From contig OY997647.1 in the NCBI GenBank assembly GCA_963921795.1, positions 60,166,357 through 60,230,356 on the forward strand: a stretch of DNA of 64,000 nucleotides, read 5' to 3'. Below, piece by piece: positions 2,698 to 63,262 of this stretch. This DNA is from Nannobrachium achirus (lineage: Eukaryota > Chordata > Actinopteri > Myctophiformes > Myctophidae). The first letter of the stretch is position 1, and each line of letters begins with the position of its first letter. The notes beneath the pieces were generated by a model. That model had not been told where the DNA came from. It made no database searches and was given only the letters and a program-made list of their open reading frames with translations. The position numbers were made by a program, and so were the translations under genes.

Positions 2698-3139
2698 TAG
2701 GGCTGTCACAATTATTACATCATCGTCTAATCGCAATTATTTGACATAATTGCGATTATTTTTCATAATCATCATAATCGTTTCCATGTTGGAAATGTTC
2801 ATTATATATATTTTTTAAGTGAAAAATAGTGGAAATAGCAGATCTACAAGCTCACAACGTGTCGCATGGCGACGCGTTGTGAGCTTGTAGATCGGCTATT
2901 TCCACTATCAATGTTCTTTTTTAAGTATAAAGTTGTCAAATATGTCAGTAATTTGCCAATTTCTTTGTATATTTATTTAGGTTATGTGTCATATCTGCCA
3001 TGTGCAACTTCAAAGCCTAAAAGCCAAACAGAGATTATTATTAGAGATTATCAACGACAAAAACACAATTAAATCGTTAATTGCAATTATTTGAGTGACA
3101 ATTAATCGTCATGTAAAATGTCATATCGTGACAGCCCTA
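2698..3139. mobile_element. hAT-type miniature element, TAGGGCTGTCAC ends
   Basis: 442 bp with ends TAGGGCTGTCACAATT and ATCGTGACAGCCCTA and the 8-bp duplication GCTTCAAC at 2690-2697 and 3140-3147. AT-rich interior with TAATCG inverted motifs. Contains the hairpin at 2826-2908. Confidence 0.92.
2826..2908. repeat. ~80-bp hairpin, copy 1
   Basis: Stem from ATAGTGGAAATAGCAGATC through the GTGTCGC tip and back. The base pairs outside the shared core (ATAGTGG/CCACTAT) are specific to this copy. Confidence 0.9.
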
Positions 3140-3431
3140 GCTTCAACAGTTGATCCTTATAGTAAACTTTTCCAGTAGCCTAATGCCTCCAGGAGGATTC
3201 CTGACTAAATCATTTATTTTTAGCTGACTTTTATTTTTAGGACAAACCTGAGATGACCCGCCATAATAGCCCGCTGAAAAGCAGGCTCAGAAACACCACA
3301 CACACACTAGACTAGAGCACAAAGAAATGTCACCAGGACGGCCGTTACCTTTCTATAGTGCAGCAGCACCACCTTTTGCTCACACAGGCACTACTACATC
3401 ACGGTACAGGGTGTAAAATGATGTACTAAAG

Positions 3432-3892
3432 CAGGGGTCTTCAACGTTTTCAGCCCAAGGACCCCTTAGTTGAGAGAGAGATGAAGCAGGGACCCCCACA
3501 ACCTGTTCATGGATTCCATATAGTTTCATCGTTTGACAGCACAATCATCAGTGTATTTTGGATTGATGTCAATTTGTGATTTCAGATATTTAACAACTTG
3601 AACCGTCAATACTTAATAAACTTGACATTTCACTCTGTACTTAGTCTGCTCTTTTTCCCCTATCTGCCAAAAATAGCAGATCTACAAGTTCACAACGCCT
3701 CGCAGCGCGAGGCGTTGTTAGCTTGTAGATCTGCTATTTTTGGCTAAAGTTCTCAGAATATGGACGCTAGGGTTTAAGTGGTTAATATAAAAAAGGAGAA
3801 AAAAAGTTTCTATCACTCAAAGATTTCGAGGACCCCCTGTAGTAACTCTGGGGACCCCCTAGGGGTCCCGGACCCCCTGTTGAAGACCCCTG
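3432..3892. mobile_element. hAT-type miniature element, CAGGGGTCTTCAAC family
   Basis: 461 bp, ends CAGGGGTCTTCAACGTTTT and TGTTGAAGACCCCTG, duplication TACTAAAG at 3424-3431 and 3893-3900. Contains a hairpin. Related copies at 25826, 48237, 52820 and, truncated, before 14043. Confidence 0.93.
3666..3744. repeat. ~80-bp hairpin, copy 2
   Basis: Closed by GCCAAAAATAGC/GCTATTTTTGGC with a CCTCGC/GCGAGG upper stem. One loop-side mismatch (AAGTTCAC opposite GTTAGCTT). Confidence 0.92.
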
Positions 3893-3924
3893 TACTAAAG
3901 TAAGCTACACTCAAAATAAAGTGC

Positions 3925-4084
3925 TGTGTGTGTGTGTGTGTGTGTGTGTGTGTGTGTGTGTGTGTGTGTGTGTGTGTGTGTGTGTGTGTGTGTGTGTGTG
4001 TGTGTGTGTGTGTGTGTGTGTGTGTGTGTGTGTGTGTGTGTGTGTGTGTGTGTGTGTGTGTGTGTGTGTGTGTGTGTGTGTGTG
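3925..4084. repeat. (GT)n microsatellite, 160 bp
   Basis: Uninterrupted GT repeat immediately after the hAT element at 3432-3892. Open frames in it are artefacts of the repeat. Confidence 0.98.
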
Positions 4085-4154
4085 CGACTGTGCGTAGGCC
4101 GGTAGGGACCACATAGTTAACCTTTGGTTATGCTGATTAGATGATGTCAGATTA

Positions 4155-4718
4155 ACTATTGTACCCGTTGTCAGAGTAGGCTACTATTAACAGCTGTCAG
4201 AGAGAGTAGGCTACTACCAGTAAGACTAAGGGCGAAAACCTTGGGGCGAGGTCGCACCATCTGTCTTGGCCATATATGGATTCTGTTAGTGTGGTTCTAT
4301 TAACAGGGCATCATCTGGGCATCATTTTTATTTTATCCTTTATTAATATTGGACCAGTTACCCATATATGGAGATCCATGTATATGGAGATATGGGCATA
4401 TTGGTTAGACTGACATGTGTATACCGTAACCGTATATTGACATTCACAGATATGGGAGTCGTACTGGTGATGTCAGAATGAGTCAGCCATAGCCATGGAG
4501 ACCCGGGTGATGTAGAGTTGATGATGTCAGTGTTGGTCAGCTCCATATATGAAGGTCCATGACATCAGGGATCTCCATATATGGGCAGGTCAGCCTCCAT
4601 ATATGGGCAGGTCAGCCATAGGCATTGAGGTCAGCTATAGACATTGAGGTGTTACGGAATCGCGGACCTACTGACAGGATGTGGCGTTTCACATACTATT
4701 GTACCCGTTGTCAGAGTA
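4155..4718. repeat. Insertion-like segment between 24-bp direct repeats, rich in CCATATATGG
   Basis: ACTATTGTACCCGTTGTCAG plus four bases occurs at 4155 and 4695. The segment between carries repeated ATATGG/CCATAT motifs and the stretch GGCCATATATGGATTCTG, which recurs inverted at about 45230 inside the large palindrome. Confidence 0.5.
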
Positions 4719-61077: not shown

Positions 61078-61280
61078 TACACCCAACACTGTGGGTGTGG
61101 CTAACTTCAGCTGGGTCACCACCCACCTGACAACCAGGCATACCTAATGAACTGGTGGATGTGGCCACATAAAAAACACTTTCTGTACAAGTTTTTTGAA
61201 AAAATCTTCCTCCTAGTATATTCATAATACCTGATAATCATGTTTTGGGGGGGGGGGGAATCATGGCACCCCATCTTTAA
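61078..61280. repeat. Right part of the AGAGGTGGTGCCAT TTAA element
   Basis: CCAACACTGTGGGTGTGGCT, TAATACCTGATAATCATG, a poly-G run and ATCATGGCACC align with 11570-11785. Confidence 0.78.
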
Positions 61281-61554
61281 AGTGTGTAATAATTTGTTGT
61301 GTTGTTTTTCCTATTTTACTAGTTTTTGCTAACCTAAGTAAACCGAGGTTTGGTTAAGTAAATGGCAAATTCTTTGAAAAGAAGAATGTTATGAATGTCT
61401 GTCCTGACAACAACTACAGTGACATTTCCCAGAAATATCCAAGCATCAGCTGTCACAACAGGATGTGGTCACAGGGACTTGTTAGTCTTCTGGTGTTGTG
61501 GAAGAAGATTTCCAATCACACATATCCACTTCTTCTTTTCGTGTCTTTGAAGCA

Positions 61555-61965
61555 TTATATGACAGTTTCCCATTTCTTGACACAGTCCTTTGCTTTTTTA
61601 TTGAACTCTGCGAGATCTTTTATGCTGCACTGGTTGGGTAGTAGAGGGCAGACAAGGCAGTGCTGCATTGTATGGTCCTCTTCCCCGCATTCGCAGATGG
61701 CAGTTTTGTAGCCCCATCTGGCCATAGCAGTTTTTGATCGCCCTGTTCCAGTTCTCAGGCGGTTTAGTGTCTTCCACTGGGCCCATGGTGCTTCTGAGCC
61801 AGATGGGAGGGCTTCAGAAGGGGGGATTTCCATGCCAACAGGAGGGGGGTCTTCCTCAAGTTTTTTTGTCCATAGTTGGAGTCTGGAGTCTTCCCGAGAT
61901 GTTGTTAGGGGCTGGACATGGCTGAGGAAGCTTTTCCTTGACCTCAGTCGTTGGGCCGGGGACAT
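61555..61965 (-). pseudogene. LINE reverse-transcriptase C-terminal fragment
   Basis: 137-codon minus-strand frame with LNRLRTGTGRSKTAMARWGY and CECGEEDHTMQHCLVCPLL, the Cys/His C-terminal module of jockey-like LINE proteins. The polymerase domain is not present, so a 5'-truncated remnant. Confidence 0.72.
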
Positions 61966-62439
61966 GAAATTCAGAAAATGAAAGTTTCTCTACAAAGATG
62001 ACATGCGGCGTTAAGGGCCCAAGGCAGTCCTGCAGCCTGAGCAGATTAATCTCCCCAAATAACACCACCATCCAGATGATGGATTGTGCCACATTCTATC
62101 ACACGCTACCTCAGCATTTCACATGGGATGACACCACGTCACGTGATCCTCCAAAGGGCTGACGAGATCAGACCCAGCCTTGATTATGGATGGTGTCTGT
62201 GTGTGACTCAGAGATGCTGCGCGGGCGGGGTCATGATGGCGGGCGACCCTTGGCATTAACGGGTTGCTAATCCCATCAAAACGAGGTGAAAGCCAAGGAA
62301 GCGTGGCCGCAGGGCCCCTCCCACAAGGCCGTCTGACAATCATTCAGTCACCTGACCTCACTCACATCCGTGTTTGAGTGTCTGACCCGAGAGTGCACAG
62401 ACTGGCGCTTGGTATAGCTCTCATCCACACCTGGAAGAT

Positions 62440-62740
62440 TTTAACCCATTTCGGCCTAAAATTAGTGGATGCTTTAACTATTAAAAAATAGCAGATATAC
62501 AAGCTCACAGCGCGGCACCGAGTGCCGCGCTGCGAGCTTGTAGATCTGCTATTTTTGAAAAAGTTGTGAAAATGTTTGCAAATCTTTGAATATTATGTAT
62601 TTTCAAAGCGAACGTTTGTAACTCAAATTTTGCTTCTGGGTGGTCCCTGGAACTAGATATTTTGAGATGGGGGTCCGTGGCCAAATACATATCATTTTGG
62701 CGGTCCTTCACATGAAAAAGTTTGAGAGCCACTGACATAG
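62440..62740. repeat. Fragment of the CAGGGGCGTCAC hAT family with hairpin
   Basis: CTTTAACTATTAAAAAATAG, hairpin 62481-62557 (tip CGGCACCGAGTGCCG) and TGGAACTAGATATTTTGAGA match 53860-54065. Ends not found. Confidence 0.78.
62481..62557. repeat. ~80-bp hairpin, copy 12
   Basis: Near-perfect stem with AAAATAGCAGATATACAAGC opposite GCTTGTAGATCTGCTATTTT; one mismatch. Confidence 0.93.
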
Positions 62741-63202
62741 TAGTCTCTCAAGAACAGACTAACTGAGCTCCATTTAAGCGAAAAGTATCTTTTCTTTGAC
62801 GATGGCTGGCCAGATTGCTGACATAGAAACATAGGGTTTGTCAAAAAATCTTAGAAGGATTCAAAAGACACTTATAGAATCCGGGTCAAAATTCTAATTT
62901 TCACTATTTTTCAATAGTTAAAGGATAAAATAATGATACACAAAATGTGTATACCCGCTCTAAATGGGTTTTAATAGTACGCTACTTTACAGTGGCCCCT
63001 GTGGCTGTTTGGGGGTAATGAGGCGTGCTCTGAGTGAAATGGTGTGTCACTGATGAGGTTACACAGGTGAGTCTTGGCCCAGCGAATGGCGTGACACCAT
63101 CAAGGACATACTAGTTTAACCACTTAAACCCTACGTACTTCCTTGACAGGTGCCCTCCAGGGGTCCCCTATACCCTCTTCCCTCTACAACAAATCTCTTC
63201 GC

Positions 63203-63262
63203 TGACAATAGATTATCTATAAGCTTGAGATGCGTTGTGAACTTGTAGATAAGTTATTTTTT
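63203..63262. repeat. Hairpin, strongly decayed copy
   Basis: AATAGATTATCTATAAGCTT then GAGATGCGTTGTGAACTTGT and AGATAAGTTATTTTTT: recognisable arms, tip lost. Confidence 0.6.

Follow-up and report, generated by a model that had tools for sequence, protein, structure and literature searches.

How does one DNA hairpin come to lie inside many small transposons that are otherwise unrelated? The question is raised by a 64,000-nucleotide stretch of the genome of the myctophid fish Nannobrachium achirus (assembly GCA_963921795.1, contig OY997647.1, positions 60,166,357 to 60,230,356; hereafter the window). A sequence-only reading of it had noticed about 30 copies of one hairpin of about 80 bp and had offered two explanations, namely that many transposon families captured the hairpin or that the hairpin itself inserts. 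We call this element HP1: a single near-perfect DNA hairpin of ~83 bp, found inside many unrelated small transposons. At least eight unrelated non-autonomous families carry it, namely the hAT families G, F, C, E, K and D1, a miniature inverted-repeat transposable element (MITE) flanked by TTAA, here P, and the ATATCGTC MITE, here A; the family letters are this analysis's own labels, and sampled copies outside the window carry L-numbers. We hold it somewhat more probable than the reverse that HP1 has a single origin, was taken up on rare occasions, roughly once in each of these eight or more families, and was then multiplied by its hosts.

The existence of the hairpin was assessed in several ways. 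A fuzzy search placed the arm, its complement or both at most a few dozen bases from the main coordinates of the sequence-only reading, and, when pairing was followed outward, most of 20 copies measured spanned 67-93 bp with a symmetry of 86-93%, the rest being broken or decayed. A covariance model built from 18 HP1 copies, which match it by construction, recovers 26 loci in the window at E<=0.01, and nhmmer recovers 27 at E<=1e-3, in agreement with the ~30 copies first claimed. Twenty-three of the 24 main sites are among the 26 significant loci, and the remaining one, 32302, is a half hairpin (E 0.98). The sites described as decayed fared less evenly: 15413 (E 2.8e-4) and 63203 (E 0.0065) are significant, 16262 (E 0.11) and 20393 (E 0.3) are weak, and 13803 is absent from the covariance-model list, although its position is where family B copies hold the hairpin. 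One significant locus had not been listed, a decayed copy at 1124..1201 (plus strand, E 1.4e-5). A palindrome scan of the window found 20 palindromes, 15 of them HP1, against none in three shuffles, and HP1 accounts for 26 of the 41 long short-loop palindromes in 254 kb.

Two checks are independent of the construction of the covariance model. A genome-wide arm search, which the sequence-only reading had proposed, was run with a 20-base arm over 1.66 Gb in 564 contigs and gave 15,961 + 16,273 = 32,234 exact matches, with none for the reversed control. Twenty 10-kb regions, set at round coordinates across ten contigs and with 10,367 N among their 200,000 bases, hold 40 HP1 copies (E<=1e-3), a density of one in ~4.7 kb, from which we estimate by extrapolation ~3.5x10^5 copies, that is, a few hundred thousand, in the genome. 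A known RNA family was ruled out as the identity of HP1, with no Rfam match in the window at gathering score. Among other collections, the genome contigs returned no match to HP1, the viral contigs none apart from one 18-mer match taken as chance, and phages, among the matches listed, only matches at E ~9 with 39% coverage.

Across hosts, HP1 keeps a common plan: ~14 bp of outer stem are followed by a single mismatch and ~25 bp of inner stem, and the tip has 3 bases. Hardly any change between hosts is seen in the central part of the inner stem, GATCTACAAGC[T/A]CACAACG, and the most variable parts are the outermost eight pairs and the pairs close to the tip; the outer stem bases are host-specific yet symmetric. 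The mismatch is A.G (when both are read as arms, one has A and the other C) and confers polarity on the hairpin. It is the consensus state in six of eight families (P, A, K, T, G and H); the position is paired in the F and C consensus, with the mismatch present in single F copies. The inner stem falls into subtypes, CCTCGC in P, A and K, CGTCGC in T, G, F and E, and CGGCAC in C. Four copies folded as DNA reach -31.9 to -51.9 kcal/mol (z -10.8 to -15.9). Among 14 chosen representatives, to which G and P contribute two rows each, 19 of 40 pairs have changed on both sides between families; these two-sided changes, A-T to T-A and G-C to C-G included, fill 52 cells (15.2 when shuffled) versus 12 one-sided cells. 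A hairpin selected as RNA would be expected to show many one-sided G-U intermediates. The covariation score is 0.276 versus 0.105 shuffled, none of 500 shuffles reaches it, and slid versions give 0.03-0.07. Pairing holds in 95.2% of cells, a percentage that leans towards the structure because the structure was derived from such sequences. Pairing may be kept by selection on spreading lineages, or it may be restored at each capture.

Descent of all hosts from one ancestral transposon that already held the hairpin has in its favour that HP1 is a single sequence family in every host. Between eight families, the median identity of HP1 is 0.81-0.90 (biased upward, as only copies with a score >=55 were compared and many were chosen by exact 20-mer), whereas that of the flanks is 0.68-0.75, with random pairs at a median of 0.714 and a 95% level of 0.774; the corresponding within-family values are 0.88-0.95 for hairpins and 0.77-0.87 for flanks. 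For the window copies, cross-family flanks are at noise level except between P and H (the best of 1,232 comparisons scores 16; the null has its 99% level at 14). Because HP1 is 81-90% identical across families while the flanks are at chance, one ancestral host is untenable, and we rejected it as next to incredible. The ends and target duplications of the hosts also differ, and HP1 varies in position: it is roughly central in A, P and F, lies at a distance of ~90-130 bp from one end in D1 and G, and is found close to both ends in C. The sequence-only reading had conceded that a single ancestral host would make independent mobility unnecessary; ends, duplications and flanks all speak against such a host. 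Together with hairpin variants that largely track host family, they support capture by many families.

The hosts themselves were defined by their termini. A scan for matching ends with an 8-bp target-site duplication (TSD) found 11 elements in the window and, with the 20 sampled regions added, 28 hAT-like elements, half of them (14) with HP1, against two in a reversed-sequence control. Among these 14, HP1 sits within a nested MITE A in four and within a K fragment in one (12266-12762); two others belong to family B. G, F, K, E, C, B, D2 and T combine an 8-bp TSD with terminal inverted repeats starting CAG/TAG, as expected of hATs, with TSDs matching at seven of eight bases in D2 and in E. The scan omits two-letter duplications, and hence the D1 element at 7601..8184 (ends CAGGGGCGTCA, TSD GTGGGTTT, read by eye) is uncounted; its HP1, at 7691..7773 on the plus strand, is an ACATGC stem variant. 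The hAT G at 2698..3139 (ends TAGGGCTGTCAC, TSD GCTTCAAC, from the scan) holds an 83-bp HP1 at 2826..2908 (plus), seen by pairing, palindrome scan, fold and covariance model alike, and the hAT F at 18161..18694 (ends CAGTGTT, TSD CACTGAAG, from the scan) holds the top-scoring palindrome of the window, a 93-bp HP1 at 18380..18472 (minus). Family C has HP1 at 32916..32982 (plus; element 32850-33290, TSD GTCGTACA), at 34631..34709 (minus; element 34307-35308, TSD CCTGTCCT), and twice in one element (53794-54310), with a left copy at 53865..53943 and a right copy at 54172..54235, both plus; a further copy lies in a C-type fragment (62481..62559, plus). Family E holds one at 50306..50378 (plus) and a remnant at 15408..15458 (minus); a third hairpin, CACACATAGACATCAAAG..., lies at 15181-15230, near one end of this family. 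An interrupted HP1 lies in the K fragment within the hAT at 12266-12762 (12385..12486, minus), another copy in a K fragment at 29888..29959 (plus), and others in the hAT-like family H, with P-like internal sequence (38626..38701, minus), and in family x2 (41778..41833, plus).

MITE A has the ends ATATCGTC...GACGATAT, and an 8-bp duplication is not visible in eight listed copies. The element at 8944..9185 is nested in a hAT (8850-9307, TSD TTGTAGGT) and holds HP1 at 9022..9110 (plus); other A copies hold it at 20505..20593 (minus), 39288..39371 (plus) and 49597..49677 (minus), with an inner deletion at 35616..35660 (plus, E 0.0082) and at 37679..37743 (plus, element 37585-37825), and with a deleted tip at 47398..47472 (plus, element 47319-47570). 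The half hairpin at 32301..32350 (E 0.98) is placed in a broken MITE A by its flanks. The first list of hosts was therefore right in that several hAT families and the ATATCGTC family carry the hairpin, and needs amending in that some hosts are nested, the ATATCGTC MITE within other hATs and the hairpin of hAT B via the TTAA MITE. It also named a 3.34-kb element (28400-31740); of its two hairpins, one is part of a K fragment of hAT type and the other, truncated at 30456..30510 (plus, covariance model), is without an assigned host. This element and the one at 43697-46601 are bounded by long inverted arms, of 359 nt (98%) and 293 nt (96%), respectively, and look foldback-like, the first holding hAT pieces. 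In L031, L063 and L070, several HP1-type hairpins stand in a row, including head-to-tail repeats.

The TTAA MITE P deserves separate treatment, since it might itself be the vehicle, inserting HP1 into transposons and later losing its ends so that the bare hairpin stays. Nine HP1-bearing P elements measure 158-211 bp, and a tenth, of 437 bp, is without HP1. TTAA stands at both ends of eight of the nine, a result partly by construction as the search pattern contained TTAA with two mismatches allowed; the element at 63128-63322 was read by eye, and its HP1 is a remnant (63198..63267, minus, E 0.0065). Most P copies carry the flanks of one site within hAT B, and B holds HP1 in nested P, with a broken form in L023. 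At 3590..3785, a P element read by eye (TTAACAACTTGAACC...GGGTTTAAGTGGTTAA, flanked by TTAA) has HP1 near its centre at 3666..3744 (minus as oriented by its flanks; cmsearch slightly favours plus) and is enclosed by a hAT B at 3432..3892 (ends CAGGGGTCTTCAAC, TSD TACTAAAG, from the scan); a second B copy encloses a P whose HP1 is at 48397..48470 (plus). Such nesting of an HP1-bearing P in another transposon, with TTAA on both sides, speaks for P as a vehicle, and P-like ends or flanks near HP1 also occur in families T and H. In A, K, G, F and C, however, the sequence beside the hairpin resembles P no more than chance would give, though within each family it is conserved up to the hairpin, and we regard P as an unlikely vehicle.

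If the families captured HP1 separately, its variants should be sorted by host, and largely they are. In a tree of 69 hairpins (score >=62, out of 160 copies), the 13 host groups need 19 label changes, against a minimum of 12 and a shuffled mean of 46.7; A and C are single clades, and P, T, K, F, G and H need 3, 5, 4, 3, 2 and 2 changes, respectively. Some exchange between families, or poor tree resolution, remains. One concrete transfer can be read from the sequences, between hAT K and hAT D1. The D1 copies at 7691 and in L045 have in common with the K copies L017, L025 and L049 a flank, GAGGCATTACATTTTGGATAACACGGTTTA (L045 form), left of the hairpin, so that ~30 bp of donor flank came along with it. 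The direction would be from K to D1, because other D1 copies (at 60094, 18734 and 52355) are without HP1 and have in place HP2, a second, unrelated hairpin of 70-82 bp (GCTAAGGTATGGCAACATGACTGGTGTCTT...) that adjoins one end of D1. HP2 in D1 (19695..19764, 52377-52458 and 60116-60185) makes up three of the 41 long palindromes, and it also lies right of HP1 in L059.

The other explanation originally offered, that the hairpin itself inserts, would make HP1 a tiny mobile element whose enzyme reads the folded strand, perhaps by its A.G mismatch, and which leaves no TSD or enters palindromic targets. Several features would suit it: the borders of similarity are sharp, at 69-86 bp, between unrelated hosts; the mismatch is conserved; the outer stem is symmetric even where its bases are host-specific; and, out of 40 flank clusters, 24 consist of a single context, although decayed members of known families account for several of these. 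Among 25 window copies, however, no target duplication or constant junction around HP1 is common to families. Direct repeats exceed the 95% level of a copy's own shuffles in four of the 25 (2826, 7691, 35616 and 49599), and the two MITE A cases among them repeat sequence of their own element ends; the repeat TTTTTTAAGT in G was set aside since G copies vary there, and ACGGTTTCT in D1 since it lies in the K-like flank. Paired loci with and without the hairpin, which the sequence-only reading had suggested looking for, were sought in ~300 kb, which yielded no clean empty site. The sole sampled G copy that looked hairpin-free (L029) does carry the hairpin, and L017:7982-8344, considered as a hairpin-free K element, is an internal deletion retaining outer-stem pieces.

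Family K offers the closest view of hairpin loss. Across the genome, 101 K copies have <=30 bases between flank anchors (control 0); most of those listed still contain parts of one arm or of both, joined at many different points, and about a dozen retain none that is recognisable. The form GGTTCT-ATTTTCACAAT occurs 13 times and fits a deletion between CTATT repeats, and the form GGTTCTATTTCTGCC, with no hairpin left, occurs five times (both counted by eye); the latter would fit either an exact deletion or a genuinely empty site. The reading GGTTCT-ATT-TCTGCC, seen five times in hairpin-free K, would indeed fit an empty site with an ATT duplication; yet, because the short K copies form a series of different internal deletions, these five forms may equally be deletions between ATT repeats. 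Of two short T copies, one is likely a deletion between AAATAGCC repeats. Later loss of HP1 by deletion is frequent. In L102, a copy of F, the second arm of HP1 is gone and telomere-like ACCCTAACCCTAACCC stands instead, which looks like the patching of a break at the hairpin. With variants that largely track host families, the missing common duplication and short K copies that are mostly internal deletions, self-insertion of HP1 found no support and seems to us improbable. More doubtful still is a stronger version, in which HP1 is a eukaryotic nuclear counterpart of the bacterial repetitive extragenic palindromic (REP) elements, spreading by itself, marked in polarity by A.G, entering several superfamilies as a folded single strand without a TSD and using transposons as carriers.

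Recombination between hairpins, swapping flanks between elements, could also have been the main route of spread. Suggestive joints exist: the left flank of K occurs together with K-right, with D1 and with a gene-like flank, in L030 P-left meets P2-left, and in L006 B meets an inverted P half. Against this route, there is no excess of such joints over control hinges, and the gene-flank group looks like a single event copied by segmental duplication. HP1 as a recombination hub was accordingly dropped, and we give the idea very little credence. The gene-flank group comprises L079, L080, L086, L087 and L092, all on one contig, in which a K element, truncated at the edge of the hairpin, adjoins a repeated gene-like sequence with the same junction type; the five-copy junction is probably a segmental duplication, and the flank is presumably a fish NLR exon.

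We therefore return to rare capture followed by amplification in the hosts. In the founding step, the hairpin would have been copied from a template while a gap was repaired or replication had stalled. Both arms would have been copied, because the asymmetric A.G mismatch survives and snap-back of one arm would erase it. The hosts would afterwards amplify the captured hairpin, and its ability to fold may have aided its own spread or that of the host. A number of observations weigh against this account. Over half of the 160 copies stem from stretches of a single contig that were picked by exact 20-mer, which inflates HP1 identity. In the tree, T and K are not single clades (five and four changes), only 8 of 61 inner branches are well supported, the hairpin being short, and the two D1 hairpins group with K hairpins at a support of only 89/78. 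Hosts are without assignment for 28 of the 160 copies, among them L041, L076 and L104, so some of these could be direct insertions. D1 is the one family in which an HP1-free form is set beside an HP1-bearing descendant, and no founding event came to light. The flanks of a 0.24 fraction of copies depart from the commonest partner at the hairpin, versus 0.23 and 0.18 at shifted hinges. Within families, 13 matching two-arm changes versus ~4.3 expected, alongside 19 non-matching ones, are a weak sign of arm-to-arm correction.

Elsewhere in the window, long open frames at 55784-59420 were read as those of a retrotransposon, one 268-aa frame among them having no Pfam match, and 26955-27359 holds an immunoglobulin-domain frame with Pfam Ig matches.

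If capture is the correct account, a deletion-prone hairpin has become very common in a genome of vertebrate size by riding unrelated transposons, and it becomes possible to test the long-standing question of whether forming a hairpin helps short elements multiply. MITE families of different kinds would then exchange internal parts, so that common origin could not be inferred from interior sequence alone. A MITE family normally has its ends in common with an autonomous parent, and the TTAA type we take to be piggyBac/Kolobok-like. The HP1 hosts resemble hAT and TTAA MITEs in being short and non-coding, with terminal repeats and 8-bp or TTAA flanks, and differ in that unrelated families here have one internal hairpin in common. 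We know of no report of an internal inverted repeat common to several hAT families. Titles and abstract openings in the literature disclosed no such hairpin in fish transposons, and arm fragments searched there gave one 13-mer once, in an unrelated parasite paper. An internal inverted repeat as such also occurs in Tol2 and other hATs (cf. PMC2753552). Prokaryotic REP palindromes, as described in PMC3733652, are like HP1 in being short palindromes at high copy number, but they measure 20-40 bp, whereas HP1 mostly spans 67-93 bp and lies within DNA transposons where a host is assigned. Another parallel is the V domain of short interspersed nuclear elements (SINEs), which, according to PMC6887750, is carried by the MER6 DNA transposon: like HP1, it is a module found in elements of different kinds and spread by a DNA transposon, and it differs in being a SINE domain and not itself a hairpin, whereas HP1 is a hairpin in many DNA transposon families.

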